Assembly: GCA_035714365.1 (NCBI GenBank)
Contig: DASTMB010000075.1
Coordinates: forward strand, 1 to 40,733
Direction of reading: 5' to 3'
Origin: Mycobacteriales bacterium
GTDB taxonomy: Bacteria; Actinomycetota; Actinomycetes; BP-191
DNA: 40,733 nucleotides
Shown: piece after piece, positions 2,576 through 11,469 of the stretch
How the letters are laid out: each line of letters starts with the position of its first letter
Position numbering within the stretch: position 1 is the stretch's first letter
Made by a program: the position numbers and the translations under genes
The notes under the pieces: model-generated
The model's input: the letters and a program-made list of their open reading frames with translations, nothing else
What the model was told of the DNA's origin: nothing
Databases searched by the model: none

Positions 2576-2689
2576 TCACGCGGACTGGATCGTCAGCAGC
2601 TTCATGTTGACGATCGGCAGCACGAGCCGCCCACCCACGATGGCGTCGAGCTCGTCGTCGGAGATCTTTTCGTACGCCGTCGTTGACAC
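2576..2689 (-). CDS. Double-glycine RiPP precursor peptide, 37 aa
   Basis: This short gene begins at GTG 2689 behind GGGAGG (2694-2699; the gap of 4 bases is short). The product has an acidic leader ending in KISDDELDAIVGG, which matches the 'L/I-S-D-x-E-L-x-x-I/V-x-G-G' leaders cut by C39 peptidases. The predicted core is RLVLPIVNMKLLTIQSA, 17 residues. The core has no Cys, Trp, Tyr, Phe or His, and only one Ser and one Thr, so lanthionine or azole chemistry is unlikely; aliphatic, Asn, Lys or Arg residues would be the modification targets. The stop codon sits just before the C39 ABC exporter start region, giving a substrate-exporter pair. The leader motif, ribosome site, promoter and neighbour agree. 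What the core becomes is unknown. Confidence 0.85.
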   Translation of the reverse strand: MSTTAYEKISDDELDAIVGGRLVLPIVNMKLLTIQSA

Positions 2690-2719
2690 GGTTCCTCCCA
2701 ATGTGTCGGAGATGGTCCG

Positions 2720-2863
2720 GGCAAGGTACGCGCCGTTGTCGGGCCGGTCAACGGAGGTTCGCGAGGCCCGGGCAGGAGCCGGAAACCGTTGCGGCGCAGC
2801 GGTTACAGCCTCGGAGGCAAGGTGAAGACGATTCGGTAAAAACGACCCGCTACCTCCCTTGCC
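2720..2863. promoter_or_regulatory. Three copies of heptamer GGCAAGG in the divergent control region
   Basis: GGCAAGG occurs at 2720-2726, again at 2816-2822, and inverted (CCTTGCC) at 2857-2863. The first copy overlaps the -10 box of the leftward promoter and the third overlaps the -35 box of the rightward promoter. This is where a shared regulator would bind to control both arms. No regulator gene is visible in the island. Chance recurrence of a G-rich heptamer cannot be excluded. Confidence 0.35.
2723..2751 (-). promoter_or_regulatory. Leftward promoter for precursor-exporter-P450
   Basis: Read on the minus strand: -35 TTGACC (2751-2746), exactly 17 bases, then -10 TACCTT (2728-2723). Transcription would start near 2716, about 27 bases before the precursor GTG. 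An inverted repeat CCGTTG-N10-CAACGG (2733-2754) covers the -35 box and most of the spacer, a plausible operator position. The promoter is near consensus; the operator is inference. Confidence 0.6.
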
Positions 2864-2887
2864 GGGCTTCTCGGGCGTGGTTACCGT
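2859..2887 (+). promoter_or_regulatory. Rightward promoter for the biosynthetic operon
   Basis: -35 TTGCCG (2859-2864), 17-base spacer, -10 TACCGT (2882-2887). The predicted start near 2894 leaves a short leader with ribosome site AAAGGAG (2910-2916) before the ATG at 2922. Its -10 resembles the leftward one (TACCTT), which fits co-expression of both arms. Confidence 0.5.
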
Positions 2888-2921
2888 GCCCGCACTCGAA
2901 CCGCCGACCAAAGGAGCAGAG

Positions 2922-3074
2922 ATGGCAACGAAGCCGGATTTCGACGCGTTCGTGCAGGCAGTCAGGACGTTCGAGCTCGACGACGCCACGATCGAGGCGA
3001 CCGCGCACACGTCGGCCGTGCAGGCCGAGGTGATGGAGCAGGTGCGGACGCGGCTGGAGACGCCGTCGGCGTGA
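2922..3074 (+). CDS. Small peptide, 50 aa; candidate second RiPP precursor or leader/carrier peptide
   Basis: ATG at 2922 follows AAAGGAG at 5-base spacing. The peptide starts MATKPDFDAFVQAV and ends TRLETPSA. It has no Cys, Trp, Tyr, Gly or Asn and looks mostly helical and acidic in the middle (TFELDDATIEATAHTSAVQA). It lacks a double glycine, so the C39 exporter would not cut it in the usual way. It is the first gene of the rightward operon and is followed at once by a strong hairpin, the arrangement typical of a highly expressed precursor ahead of its enzymes. It could be the enzymes' substrate, a free-standing leader, or a small partner protein. I do not recognise the family. Coding status is well supported, function is inference. 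Confidence 0.7.
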   Translation: MATKPDFDAFVQAVRTFELDDATIEATAHTSAVQAEVMEQVRTRLETPSA

Positions 3075-3085
3075 ACGGCTGACCA

Positions 3086-3113
3086 GGGCGGGGGTCCGGA
3101 CGGGCCCCCGCCC
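3086..3113 (+). terminator. Hairpin after the 50-aa peptide gene; probable attenuator
   Basis: GGGCGGGGG (3086-3094) pairs perfectly with CCCCCGCCC (3105-3113) around a 10-base loop, 11 bases past the stop codon. No T-run follows, so it is not a classical strong terminator. It could cut read-through into the enzymes or stabilise the upstream mRNA, giving excess precursor over enzyme. Confidence 0.5.
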
Positions 3114-3133
3114 ACGCATCGAGGGGGTACACC

Positions 3134-4021
3134 GTGCAACTCGTAGCGACGCCCGAGCACGTCGTCGAGGACAGCTTCTGGGTCCGGATGATCGACGGCC
3201 GCGCCAACTACTTCCACCTGCTGTTCATCGAGCCGCACCTGCACCGCGCGCACGCCGGACGCGTCGCCGCCGCGGTCGCCGAGGAGACGCTCTCGCCGTT
3301 CGCGGCCCACCGGTACGCGCAGCCCACGCCGCTGCACCGCGCCGTCGTGAGCGCGCTGCTGGCCGAGCCCGCCGGGTCGCTGGCCGACGCCGTGGCGCGG
3401 CCGTGGCACGCGGCGAACGCGCGTCCCGGTCTGCCGTTGCTCGTCGTCGGCGACCGCGACGGGCAGCGCGCCGGGACCGACGCGGAACATGCCGACCTCG
3501 AGCGCGCGATGGCCGCGCTGCGTGCCGCCGGTCTGTCCTACTTCGTCGACCTCGCGGTCGGCGCGGTCGTCGTCGGCGAGCCCGGAGCCGTGACGTCGGC
3601 CGAGGTCGCCGTCGTCGGCGGGCCGGCCGTGCCCGGCGCGGCGGGGCTCCTCGGGGTGGCGGCGCGCTGCTTCGCCGCGCAGTGGCTCGACGTCGAGACC
3701 CGCGCGCGCGGTGACGAGCCGGACGTGGCGGCGTTCGCGGACGCCGTGGACCTGTTCGCCTCGTCCGTCGTGCACGAGCTGCTCCGGCGCGACGCGATCG
3801 GCGTCGACGCGCGCGGTGCCGCGCCCGGCGCCGGCGCCCCCCACGAGTACGCGGCCTCGTGGGCCGGCCTGCTCGACCGTGAGCTGCAGCTCGAGGCGTG
3901 CGCCGCGGCGCTGGCGGAGCGCAACCCGCTCTGCGTCGAGCTCCTGCGCTGCTGGTACCCGTGCCACCCGCGCTGGACGTCGTTGTTCGGCTCACCCTTC
4001 GACTACCTGGCGGCGCTATGA
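3134..4021 (+). CDS. Unknown RiPP-cluster protein, 295 aa, possibly a degenerate HExxH-family relative
   Basis: GTG at 3134 follows GAGGGGG. I do not recognise the family. Seen in the protein: an N-terminal region rich in His and aromatic residues (ANYFHLLFIEPHLHRAHAG), a middle stretch GLSYFVDLAVGAVVVGEPG, the motif VVHELLRRD (His214-Glu215, Arg218) and a C-terminal part with ELLRCWYPCHPRW. The order 'LxxxGLxxxxDL...VVxxP ... VHELLR' parallels that in the HExxH protein two kilobases downstream (7200-8117), but the second zinc His is Arg, so it may be an inactive sister that serves as peptide-binding partner. That resemblance is by eye only. Its stop overlaps the dioxygenase start (ATGA), so it belongs to the operon. 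Confidence 0.7.
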   Translation: MQLVATPEHVVEDSFWVRMIDGRANYFHLLFIEPHLHRAHAGRVAAAVAEETLSPFAAHRYAQPTPLHRAVVSALLAEPAGSLADAVARPWHAANARPGLPLLVVGDRDGQRAGTDAEHADLERAMAALRAAGLSYFVDLAVGAVVVGEPGAVTSAEVAVVGGPAVPGAAGLLGVAARCFAAQWLDVETRARGDEPDVAAFADAVDLFASSVVHELLRRDAIGVDARGAAPGAGAPHEYAASWAGLLDRELQLEACAAALAERNPLCVELLRCWYPCHPRWTSLFGSPFDYLAAL

Positions 4022-8117: not shown

Positions 8118-9028
8118 GCGGAGCGGCCACGCTCGCGGCGGCGAGCCTCGACGTGGACGACGCCGAGCGCATCGGTCGCGACTTCGTCGCCACGTCGCTC
8201 GAGGAGGCGCTCGCGCGGGCCGGGGTCGCGGTGGCGCCGGACGCGGGCGACGGCGACGGGTTCGGCGCCCGGCTCGTCACCGTCCAGCGCAGCCAGCGCA
8301 CCGACGACGGCTCGCGCCGCCGCTCGCTCGTCCGGCGCGAGGTGGCGTGGCTGGCGCGGACGGTGCGGCCGCGGCACGCGGTCGTGCTGCACCCGTTTTG
8401 CGGGCCCGGCCACTACGCGTCGGCCCTGCGGCGTTACGACGTGAGCGCGTACCGCGGGCTCGACCGGTCGGTGCCGGTGGTAACCGCGGCGCGCCGCCTC
8501 CACCGGTGGGGACCGTCGTTCCGGTTCGAGGTCGCCGACGCGCTGGCGACCGCGTGCCCGCCGGACTCCGCCGACCTCGCGCTGCTGACGTACGAGACGC
8601 TCAACGCCGTGCCGGAGGCGACCGCGCGGGACCTGCTCGGGTCGCTGGTCCGGGCGGTCCGGCCGGGCGGTCACCTGTTCGTCGACGTGCAGCCGGCACC
8701 GCCCGAGGAGGTGTCGGTGCGGACGTTCGCCACGCCGCGGTGGAGCGTCTTCGCCCCGGAGCCGCAGCTGCTCCTGGTCGACCGGGTCGAGACCGCGGCG
8801 CCGACCCCGCGCATCGAGGTCCGGGTCGCGGTCGTGCCGCTCGCCGGCCCGCAGCGGGCGCGGATCGTGCGGAGCACGCGCTGGTGCCACGACGTGACCG
8901 CGCTGTGCGGGAGCATCGGGACGGCTCGGGTCGTCGCGGCGGCCTCGCTGCACTCGGGGACGCGGTCGGACAAGCCGGAGACCGCGCGGGCCCGCCAGCT
9001 GGTGATCAGACGGGAAGACGTGACATGA
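8114..9028 (+). CDS. Class I SAM-dependent methyltransferase
   Basis: The 304-aa protein has a roughly 90-residue N-terminal extension, then motif I region VVLHPFCGPGHYASALRR, the acidic loop YRGLDRSVPVV, motif II/III region DLALLTYETLNAVP and RPGGHLFVDVQP. These fit a Methyltransf_11/25-type Rossmann domain. It is distinct from the TylF-type enzyme in the same operon, so the pathway probably makes two methylations at chemically different sites, perhaps N- and O- or a carboxylate (inference). It overlaps both neighbours by ATGA. The acceptor is unknown. Confidence 0.85.
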   Translation: MSGAATLAAASLDVDDAERIGRDFVATSLEEALARAGVAVAPDAGDGDGFGARLVTVQRSQRTDDGSRRRSLVRREVAWLARTVRPRHAVVLHPFCGPGHYASALRRYDVSAYRGLDRSVPVVTAARRLHRWGPSFRFEVADALATACPPDSADLALLTYETLNAVPEATARDLLGSLVRAVRPGGHLFVDVQPAPPEEVSVRTFATPRWSVFAPEPQLLLVDRVETAAPTPRIEVRVAVVPLAGPQRARIVRSTRWCHDVTALCGSIGTARVVAAASLHSGTRSDKPETARARQLVIRREDVT

Positions 9029-10359
9029 CGAAGCGGTCCACCAAGGTGCTGGCGTACGTCGTCGACGGCGACCGCGTGTGCGTGTTCGAGCAGCCGGCGT
9101 CGCCGGACGCGGGGGTGCAGGTCCCGGCGGGGACGGTGGAGCCGGGGGAGGACCCGGAACGCGCGGCGTTGCGCGAGGCGGTCGAGGAGACGGGGCTCGC
9201 CGGGCTGGAGATCGTCCGGTACCTCGGAGCGACCGAGTTCGACATGGCGCCGTTCGGCCGCGACGAGGTCCAGCGCCGGCACGTGTACGAGTTGCGTTGC
9301 ACCGGTGCGGTGCCGGAGCGGTGGACGCACGAGGAGCGGTACGCGACGGGCCAGGACCCGATCCGGTTCGACCTCTACTGGCTGCCGATCGGCGAGGCGA
9401 GGGCGCGCCTCATCGCGAGCCACGGCGCGCTGCTCCACCGGGTCGGGTCCGGCGACGGCGCCGATGCGCTGCTCGGCGACCCGCACGAGCCCACGCCGTT
9501 CCACCCGACTCCGTACTTCCTCGCGCAGCTCCGCCGCCAGGGCGTGCCGGTGCGCGAGGTGCTCTCGTTCACCGGGCTGAACACGATCGCGCGCCTCGAC
9601 GACGACCGCGTCGCCAAGGGCTTCTTCGGCTACTACACGGTGCTGCGGCACATCCCGCAGCGGTACCGGCCGGAGTGCTACGGCTACTACTGGTACCGCG
9701 AGCTCGACGCGACGGCGTACGCGACGTGGCTGGAGCGGTTCCGCGTCGAGGCGCGGCTGCTCACCGAGCTGCGGGGCCACCCGAACGTCATCCGCGTCGA
9801 CTCCCATGACCTCGACGCGGAGATCCCGTACTACGTCATGCGGTTCGCGCCGGGAGGCTCGCTCGACGCGCACCTGCGGCGCTTCCGCGCGCGGGGCGAG
9901 CACCTTCCTCTCGACGTCGTGCACGACTTCGCGGCGCAGCTCCTCGACGGGCTCCAGGCGTTGCACGACGCGGGCTACGCCCACCGCGACGTGACGCCGG
10001 AGAACGTCTTCCTCGACGGCGACCGCGTGCTCCTCGGTGACCTCGGGTACGTGCGCAGGCTCGACGGCGAGCCGGAGGAGCCCGCCCCCAAGGACCCGAT
10101 GTTCTACTGGCCGCCGGAGTTCGACGAGGCGTTCCACGTCGCGGGGCCGCAGGCCGACGTGTACGGGTTCGGCATGGTGCTCCACCGGATGCTCACGCAC
10201 ACGCTGCCGCGCTTCGGGTCGTCGCTCGCGCCGATCGCGGACCGGTGCGGCCCGGAGTGGGCGGAGCTGGTGGCGCGCTGCGTGGACCCGGACCAGGGAC
10301 GCCGGTACGCGAGCGTCGCGGACTGCGCCGCGGCGTTGCAGGCGATCGACGCCTCGTAG
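9025..10359 (+). CDS. Nudix hydrolase-protein kinase fusion, 444 aa
   Basis: Residues 1 to about 150 form a Nudix domain with a perfect Nudix box: Gly36, Glu42, then REAVEETGL (50-58). From about 175 a eukaryotic-like Ser/Thr kinase domain follows: Lys198 in DRVAKGFF (beta-3 lysine), catalytic HRDVTPENV (His320-Arg321-Asp322, Asn327) and DLG (339-341) in place of DFG, then PPEFDEAF and ADVYGFGMVL. The Gly-rich loop is weak. The core catalytic residues are kept, so it may be active. Nudix domains hydrolyse nucleoside diphosphates linked to another group; together the two domains suggest phosphoryl or nucleotidyl handling of the peptide or a regulatory role (inference). The fusion is unusual for RiPP clusters. 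It is the last gene of the operon. Confidence 0.87.
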   Translation: MTKRSTKVLAYVVDGDRVCVFEQPASPDAGVQVPAGTVEPGEDPERAALREAVEETGLAGLEIVRYLGATEFDMAPFGRDEVQRRHVYELRCTGAVPERWTHEERYATGQDPIRFDLYWLPIGEARARLIASHGALLHRVGSGDGADALLGDPHEPTPFHPTPYFLAQLRRQGVPVREVLSFTGLNTIARLDDDRVAKGFFGYYTVLRHIPQRYRPECYGYYWYRELDATAYATWLERFRVEARLLTELRGHPNVIRVDSHDLDAEIPYYVMRFAPGGSLDAHLRRFRARGEHLPLDVVHDFAAQLLDGLQALHDAGYAHRDVTPENVFLDGDRVLLGDLGYVRRLDGEPEEPAPKDPMFYWPPEFDEAFHVAGPQADVYGFGMVLHRMLTHTLPRFGSSLAPIADRCGPEWAELVARCVDPDQGRRYASVADCAAALQAIDAS

Positions 10360-10374
10360 GCGCGACGCGGCCCC

Positions 10375-11469
10375 TCAAGCCTCCTGGGGCACGCGCGACG
10401 CGACGACGTCGGGAGCGAGGAGCCCCGCCACGGCGAGCTGTCCCGCCGCGGCCTCGACGACCGCGCGGACCGTGTCCACCGGGCGCTGCCACCGCTCGGT
10501 CAGCAGCGCGACGACGTCGCCCGTCGCCCGCCCGTCGTGCGCCAGCCACACCTCCGCGCCCGCCCGCGTCACCGGGTTGTCGGTCGCCCCGGTGATCAGG
10601 TAGCCGTCCGTGTAGCGCGCGACGCAGTGCCAGGCGCTGCGGACGAGTGACCCGGGCGCCGCCACCGGGTCCGGCGGGTGCCAGCCCAGCAGCGCACCGG
10701 CGGAGATGCCGGCGGCGCGGCGGAGCGTCCGGCTGACGGCATCCGCGGCGGTGTCGCCGGAGGCGCCGGCGGAGACCAGCTCGGCGCGCGTCCCGGTGAA
10801 CGTCGCGAACAACGCCGCGTCATGGCGCTGCGCGCGCCGAGCCAGGAACTTGCGTGGGACGTAGAGGTCGTCATGGACGGCGACGGCCGCCTGGACCGCG
10901 TAGTCCAGCGCGATGAGCGTCGCCTCCACCGCGGTCGCCCAGTCGCCGCTGGCGAGGGCGCCCGCCGCGTCCCGGTGCACCCCGCCCTGCAGCGCCGCGT
11001 GGCTCTCCACGACCAGCGCGCCCACCCCGTCCCGCGGCAGCCCGGCCCGCACGGCCGCCACCGCCTCCGCACCGTGCAGCACCGGGCCGTCCGTGAGCTC
11101 GAGGAACGTGCGCGTCGACTGGACCAGCCGGCTCGCCGTCGGCGTCAGGCTGGTGGCCGGCAGGTGCTCGATCCGGAACCGGTCCGCCACGGCAGCGACG
11201 TCGGCCGGCGTCATCCCGCTCACGTGGACGGAGTGGTCCGCGATCGGTGGCGGGACGACCGGCCGGTCCGGCGCCCGGTCGAGCAGCGCGACGAGGTCGA
11301 TGTCGGAGTACCGGTTGCCGAGACCGAACGCCCGGCTCCCGCCGAGCACGATCCCGGTCGCCGCCGTCTCCTCGACCAGGCGCGGCAGGTAGGCGACGAG
11401 CGCCTCGGCGACCACCGCGTCCAGGCCGTAGCCGGTCAGGTCCCCTACCCCCGCCAGGATGCTCGTCAC
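10375..11469 (-). CDS. Nucleotidyltransferase-domain protein, 364 aa
   Basis: The N-terminal segment VLGGSRAFGLGNRYSDIDLV holds the minimal nucleotidyltransferase motif: Gly44-Ser45 then Asp56-x-Asp58. The family transfers NMP from NTP to small molecules, proteins or RNA. About 250 mostly helical residues follow (like the C-terminal parts of kanamycin-nucleotidyltransferase-type or DUF4037 proteins), with no third motif that I can place. GTG 11469 is the start. It converges on the Nudix-kinase gene with only 15 bases between them, so membership of the cluster is plausible but not shown. A resistance or self-protection role, or nucleotidylation of the product, are the two obvious options. Confidence 0.75.
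   Translation of the reverse strand: MTSILAGVGDLTGYGLDAVVAEALVAYLPRLVEETAATGIVLGGSRAFGLGNRYSDIDLVALLDRAPDRPVVPPPIADHSVHVSGMTPADVAAVADRFRIEHLPATSLTPTASRLVQSTRTFLELTDGPVLHGAEAVAAVRAGLPRDGVGALVVESHAALQGGVHRDAAGALASGDWATAVEATLIALDYAVQAAVAVHDDLYVPRKFLARRAQRHDAALFATFTGTRAELVSAGASGDTAADAVSRTLRRAAGISAGALLGWHPPDPVAAPGSLVRSAWHCVARYTDGYLITGATDNPVTRAGAEVWLAHDGRATGDVVALLTERWQRPVDTVRAVVEAAAGQLAVAGLLAPDVVASRVPQEA

Follow-up and report, generated by a model that had tools for sequence, protein, structure and literature searches.

The closest described systems are those of the PCAT/AMS exporters LahT, PCAT1, and ComA, whose substrates carry a leader with hydrophobic residues at positions -4, -7, and -12, a glutamate at -8, and a GG ending. 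In the solved complex of the LahT leader with the C39 domain, hydrophobic residues stand at these same three positions (PMC6363468). The locus described here lies in a stretch of 40,733 nucleotides from a Mycobacteriales bacterium, which is referred to below as the window. It shares with the PCAT/AMS systems both the leader pattern (I-4, L-7, and I-12, at the positions that are hydrophobic in the solved complex, together with Glu-8) and an adjacent C39-ABC exporter that aligns nearly full length with PCAT1 (4ry2, E 7e-60) and ComA (8hf7, E 4e-51). It differs from them in a GC-rich host of actinobacterial type, in a P450-like gene downstream, and in a 17-residue core that is aliphatic, cysteine-free, and without relatives. 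A similar arrangement is found within the same bacterial class in the GG-leader precursors of the graspetide type (TIGR04497), which have the pattern [DE]Lxx[VI]xGG, in many cases with Arg as the next residue, and sit a few kilobases from C39 exporters. The peptide in the window, by contrast, gives no match to TIGR04497 and offers neither Asp nor Glu in its core for ATP-grasp crosslinks; the graspetide assignment was rejected on these grounds. Lanthipeptide and sactipeptide assignments were rejected for a core without cysteine, and an aromatic crosslink was ruled out by the core composition, which includes no aromatic residue.

The short reading frame upstream of the exporter is a real, tiny gene (Table 1). 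The preliminary description, made from the letters of the DNA, had proposed that it encodes a precursor with a GG leader that belongs to the C39 exporter next to it, and this proposal is supported by the anatomy of the locus, the coding composition, the leader profile, and the exporter domains. The frame, its GTG start, the GGGAGG site, and the precursor VSTTAYEKISDDELDAIVGGRLVLPIVNMKLLTIQSA were recovered letter for letter, and the core has the makeup given earlier, aliphatic with Arg1 and Lys10. This core is hydrophobic and positively charged, lacks cysteine, aromatic, and acidic residues, and has a computed mass of 1909.4 Da and a pI of about 11. Against the NCBIfam model TIGR01847 (bacteriocin_sig), the leader scores 17.2 bits and thus passes the cut-off of 15.7. 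With I-4, L-7, and I-12 in the leader, together with Glu-8, cleavage after Gly20 and export of the 17-mer are expected. The leader would form a helix that docks through its three hydrophobic residues into the PCAT's C39 domain; this peptidase would cut at the GG motif, and the ABC part would carry the core out of the cell. We assign a probability of about 0.8 to the reading that the precursor is cut and exported by this transporter. Counting against it, the precursor is an orphan in all collections searched; in addition, no immunity or sensor gene was identified beside it, in an operon that runs off the contig end.

Table 1. Coordinates of the features discussed, numbered from the first letter of the window unless another locus is named.
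Feature	Position	Strand	Evidence or remark
GG-leader precursor gene, 37 aa	2576-2689	minus	GTG start, 114 nt
Leader, 20 aa, VSTTAYEKISDDELDAIVGG	2689-2630	minus	residue 1 is Met once translated
Core, 17 aa, RLVLPIVNMKLLTIQSA	2629-2579	minus	
Ribosome binding site GGGAGG	2699-2694	minus	sequence; 4 nt before GTG of precursor
Candidate promoter TTGACC-17 nt-TACCTT	2751-2723	minus	sequence; weak
C39 peptidase/ABC exporter (PCAT)	393-2579	minus	Pfam domains, structure matches, motifs
RNA hairpin between precursor and exporter	2515-2586	minus	z -4.5
Cytochrome-P450-like protein, N-terminal 140 aa	1-421	minus	cut off by contig end
Divergent operon	2922 to about 10359	plus	domain and NCBIfam searches
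Small peptides of four clusters	window 2922-3074; L117 16815-16970; L118 13909-14049; L119 9089-9250	plus (window)	

The exporter contains Peptidase_C39 (1e-30), ABC membrane, and ABC ATPase domains, with Cys44, His117, Asp133, and Gln38 as candidate catalytic residues whose roles are assigned by family, and with the ATPase motifs GDSGCGKS (Walker A), FSGGQ (signature), and LILDEAT (Walker B). It reaches the cut-off of none of its 25 best NCBIfam models. Its start is either a GTG at 2579-2577, which the precursor stop TGA (2578-2576) overlaps by 4 nt, or an ATG at 2552. This ATG lies at the loop of the strong hairpin between the two genes, a 34-nt inverted repeat with a 14-bp GC stem, which may limit exporter expression and keep the exporter below precursor levels. 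The promoter upstream of the precursor had been called near-consensus, a wording that is too strong because the two hexamers match the sigma-70 consensus at 8 of 12 positions and a promoter scanner with a threshold of 9/12 did not report the site. TTGACC/TACCTT does agree with the loose promoter pattern TTGAC/TAnnnT that GC-rich actinobacteria show.

The search for relatives of the precursor covered plasmids and 394 genomes of the class, its own genus included, and returned no match; the order of the source genome accounts for three genomes in this collection. Exporter searches across the class, the phylum, and plasmids likewise returned no near relative, nor did the plasmid search with the P450-like stub. 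More distant exporters were found: those of the two genomes from the same genus share 35% identity with the exporter in the window, a second exporter in the source genome is 33% identical, and exporters across the class range from 34 to 37%. The same-genus exporters and the second exporter adjoin different precursors of the GG type, one of them above the cut-off of a class I lanthipeptide leader model, and most of the class exporter loci examined have a graspetide-target or mersacidin-type precursor nearby. Since GG precursors stand beside the C39 exporters of these relatives, the pairing is common in the lineage, while the precursor in the window remains an orphan. It is thus a new orphan within a well-known GG-leader/PCAT arrangement, a peptide without known relatives. 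A match to PHROG 31585 (E 0.007, function unknown) was set aside as weak. The same-genus exporters and the second exporter of the source genome (L003, L004, and L005) also lie next to precursor arrays, in which three to five peptides of GG/GA type combine a leader resembling MRxLxLxKETLxEL with a cysteine-containing core; the exporter frame of L003 has one in-frame TGA.

On the opposite strand, the divergent operon encodes a 50-aa peptide, a 295-aa protein of unknown type, a 2OG-Fe oxygenase, a TylF-like methyltransferase, a dTMP-kinase-like protein, a radical SAM/SPASM protein, an aKG-HExxH protein, a methyltransferase, and a Nudix-kinase fusion. Related clusters were found on plasmids of Streptomyces clavifer (L117) and Kitasatospora cathayae and in one further genome (G293). 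The radical SAM/SPASM, aKG-HExxH, and dTMP-kinase-like proteins occur in all four clusters and the 2OG oxygenase in three. Each cluster encodes a small peptide of 46-53 aa, whose gene immediately precedes that of the HExxH protein in the three relatives, and the four peptides have F, AV, D, and T-x-H-[TS]-S in common. The three of them that were scanned (window, L117, and L118) match no NCBIfam model, and together the TxH[TS]S peptides look like an undescribed RiPP family. The 50-aa peptide in the window is likely the precursor of the divergent operon, and the GG peptide is therefore best treated as a separate, neighboring system. Several other features of this region were recorded. The 295-aa protein (3134-4021, plus strand) has no Pfam match, no NCBIfam model above cut-off, and no relative in the 394 class genomes. 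The gene at 9028-10359 (plus strand) encodes a fusion of a Nudix and a protein-kinase domain; the S. clavifer cluster has the Nudix and kinase homologues as separate genes. The gene at 10375-11469 (minus strand) encodes a nucleotidyltransferase-like protein whose C-terminus gives a weak PqqD-like match; similar proteins seem by eye to lie near the L118 and L119 clusters, and their alignment to the one in the window is not significant.

Could the precursor be a chance open frame in GC-rich DNA? Its frame is open across 463 codons (2576-3967), as is typical of GC-rich antisense frames, and it has no homologue among those searched. The open frame itself is uninformative because the DNA has 74% G+C. 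The codon-position composition does argue against chance: GC at the three positions is 22/38, 14/38, and 34/38 (0.58/0.37/0.89; Fisher p 3e-6 for position 3 vs 2), it reaches 1.00 at the third position of the core codons, and it is flat across the two in-frame blocks of 114 nt (228 nt) upstream, so that the periodicity starts at the precursor. The gene also has a ribosome site and a leader-profile match, and it is the one reading frame in the whole window that combines a start, a ribosome site, and the motif [ED][LM]xx[VIL]xGG. This combination occurred in 0 reading frames of 25 Markov-simulated windows and in 0 of 1,280,693 bp of background loci with 68% GC, which had been collected for other purposes and include the matches of an exporter search that were mostly beta-proteobacterial, confined to the ATPase, and of no use for tracing the precursor. 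We therefore regard a chance origin as extremely improbable. Somewhat less remote, though still improbable, is the reading in which the GG peptide is the substrate of the radical SAM/HExxH cluster and the C39 exporter is its transporter. The divergent genes do have one 232-bp intergenic region in common. Opposing this, the cluster has its own 50-aa precursor, conserved in the three relatives, and the GG core lacks the aromatic residues or cysteines of the usual radical SAM crosslinks. Moreover, the stretches compared beside the relatives' clusters have neither a C39 exporter nor a GG precursor, as judged by a GG-motif scan in G293 and by annotation and an exporter search in the two plasmid stretches.

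For the exported 17-mer, we rank a bacteriocin-like role first and a pheromone role second, as a first guess. A class II type antagonistic peptide, the leading candidate at somewhat under even odds, would agree with the GG leader, the cationic hydrophobic core, the dedicated exporter, and the TIGR01847 profile that class II bacteriocins share with this locus. In contrast to them, the core is short, no immunity gene was identified beside it, and TIGR01847 is the sole bacteriocin model passed, the L_biotic_typeA and lacticin 481 models remaining below their cut-offs. The pneumococcal pheromone CSP has a 17-residue core. An unmodified ComC/CSP-like pheromone, which would leave the cell through a ComA-like PCAT and act on a receptor, would thus equal the core in length and share its GG leader and an exporter that aligns with ComA; we consider it unlikely, however, as no sensor or receptor gene was recognized next to the precursor in the stretch examined and the ComC profile is not among the precursor matches at E 0.1. 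Comparably unlikely is a modified RiPP, in which the P450-like enzyme would oxidize an aliphatic side chain of the core before C39 cleavage and export. The P450-like gene directly follows the exporter in the same direction, overlapping its 3' end by about 29 nt, and core modification is therefore possible. Against this stand a stub of 140 residues with no Pfam match, whose best profile, TIGR04515 (a P450-derived glycosyltransferase activator), lies far below cut-off (E 1.5e-5), and an assembly in which the search for the rest of the P450, including the heme-binding part, gave no P450 match elsewhere. The stub also matches CYP107B1 weakly (E 8e-4). The more specific proposal, that a core free of cysteine and aromatic residues is oxidized at an aliphatic side chain by a dedicated P450-family enzyme and served by its own C39 transporter, appears quite doubtful, and the literature searched offered no precedent for a P450-tailored GG-leader RiPP.

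Returning to the precursor/PCAT reading, the export signal of the leader fits the peptide-cutting transporter next door, and the cell therefore probably secretes a 17-residue peptide. The locus adds an orphan predicted secreted peptide, short enough to be synthesized at once, and the exporter that goes with it, both from a sparsely sampled lineage, and it illustrates that codon-position composition can confirm a small gene even without any homologue. If the P450-like neighbor does modify the core, this would point to a new way of tailoring peptides with a GG leader.
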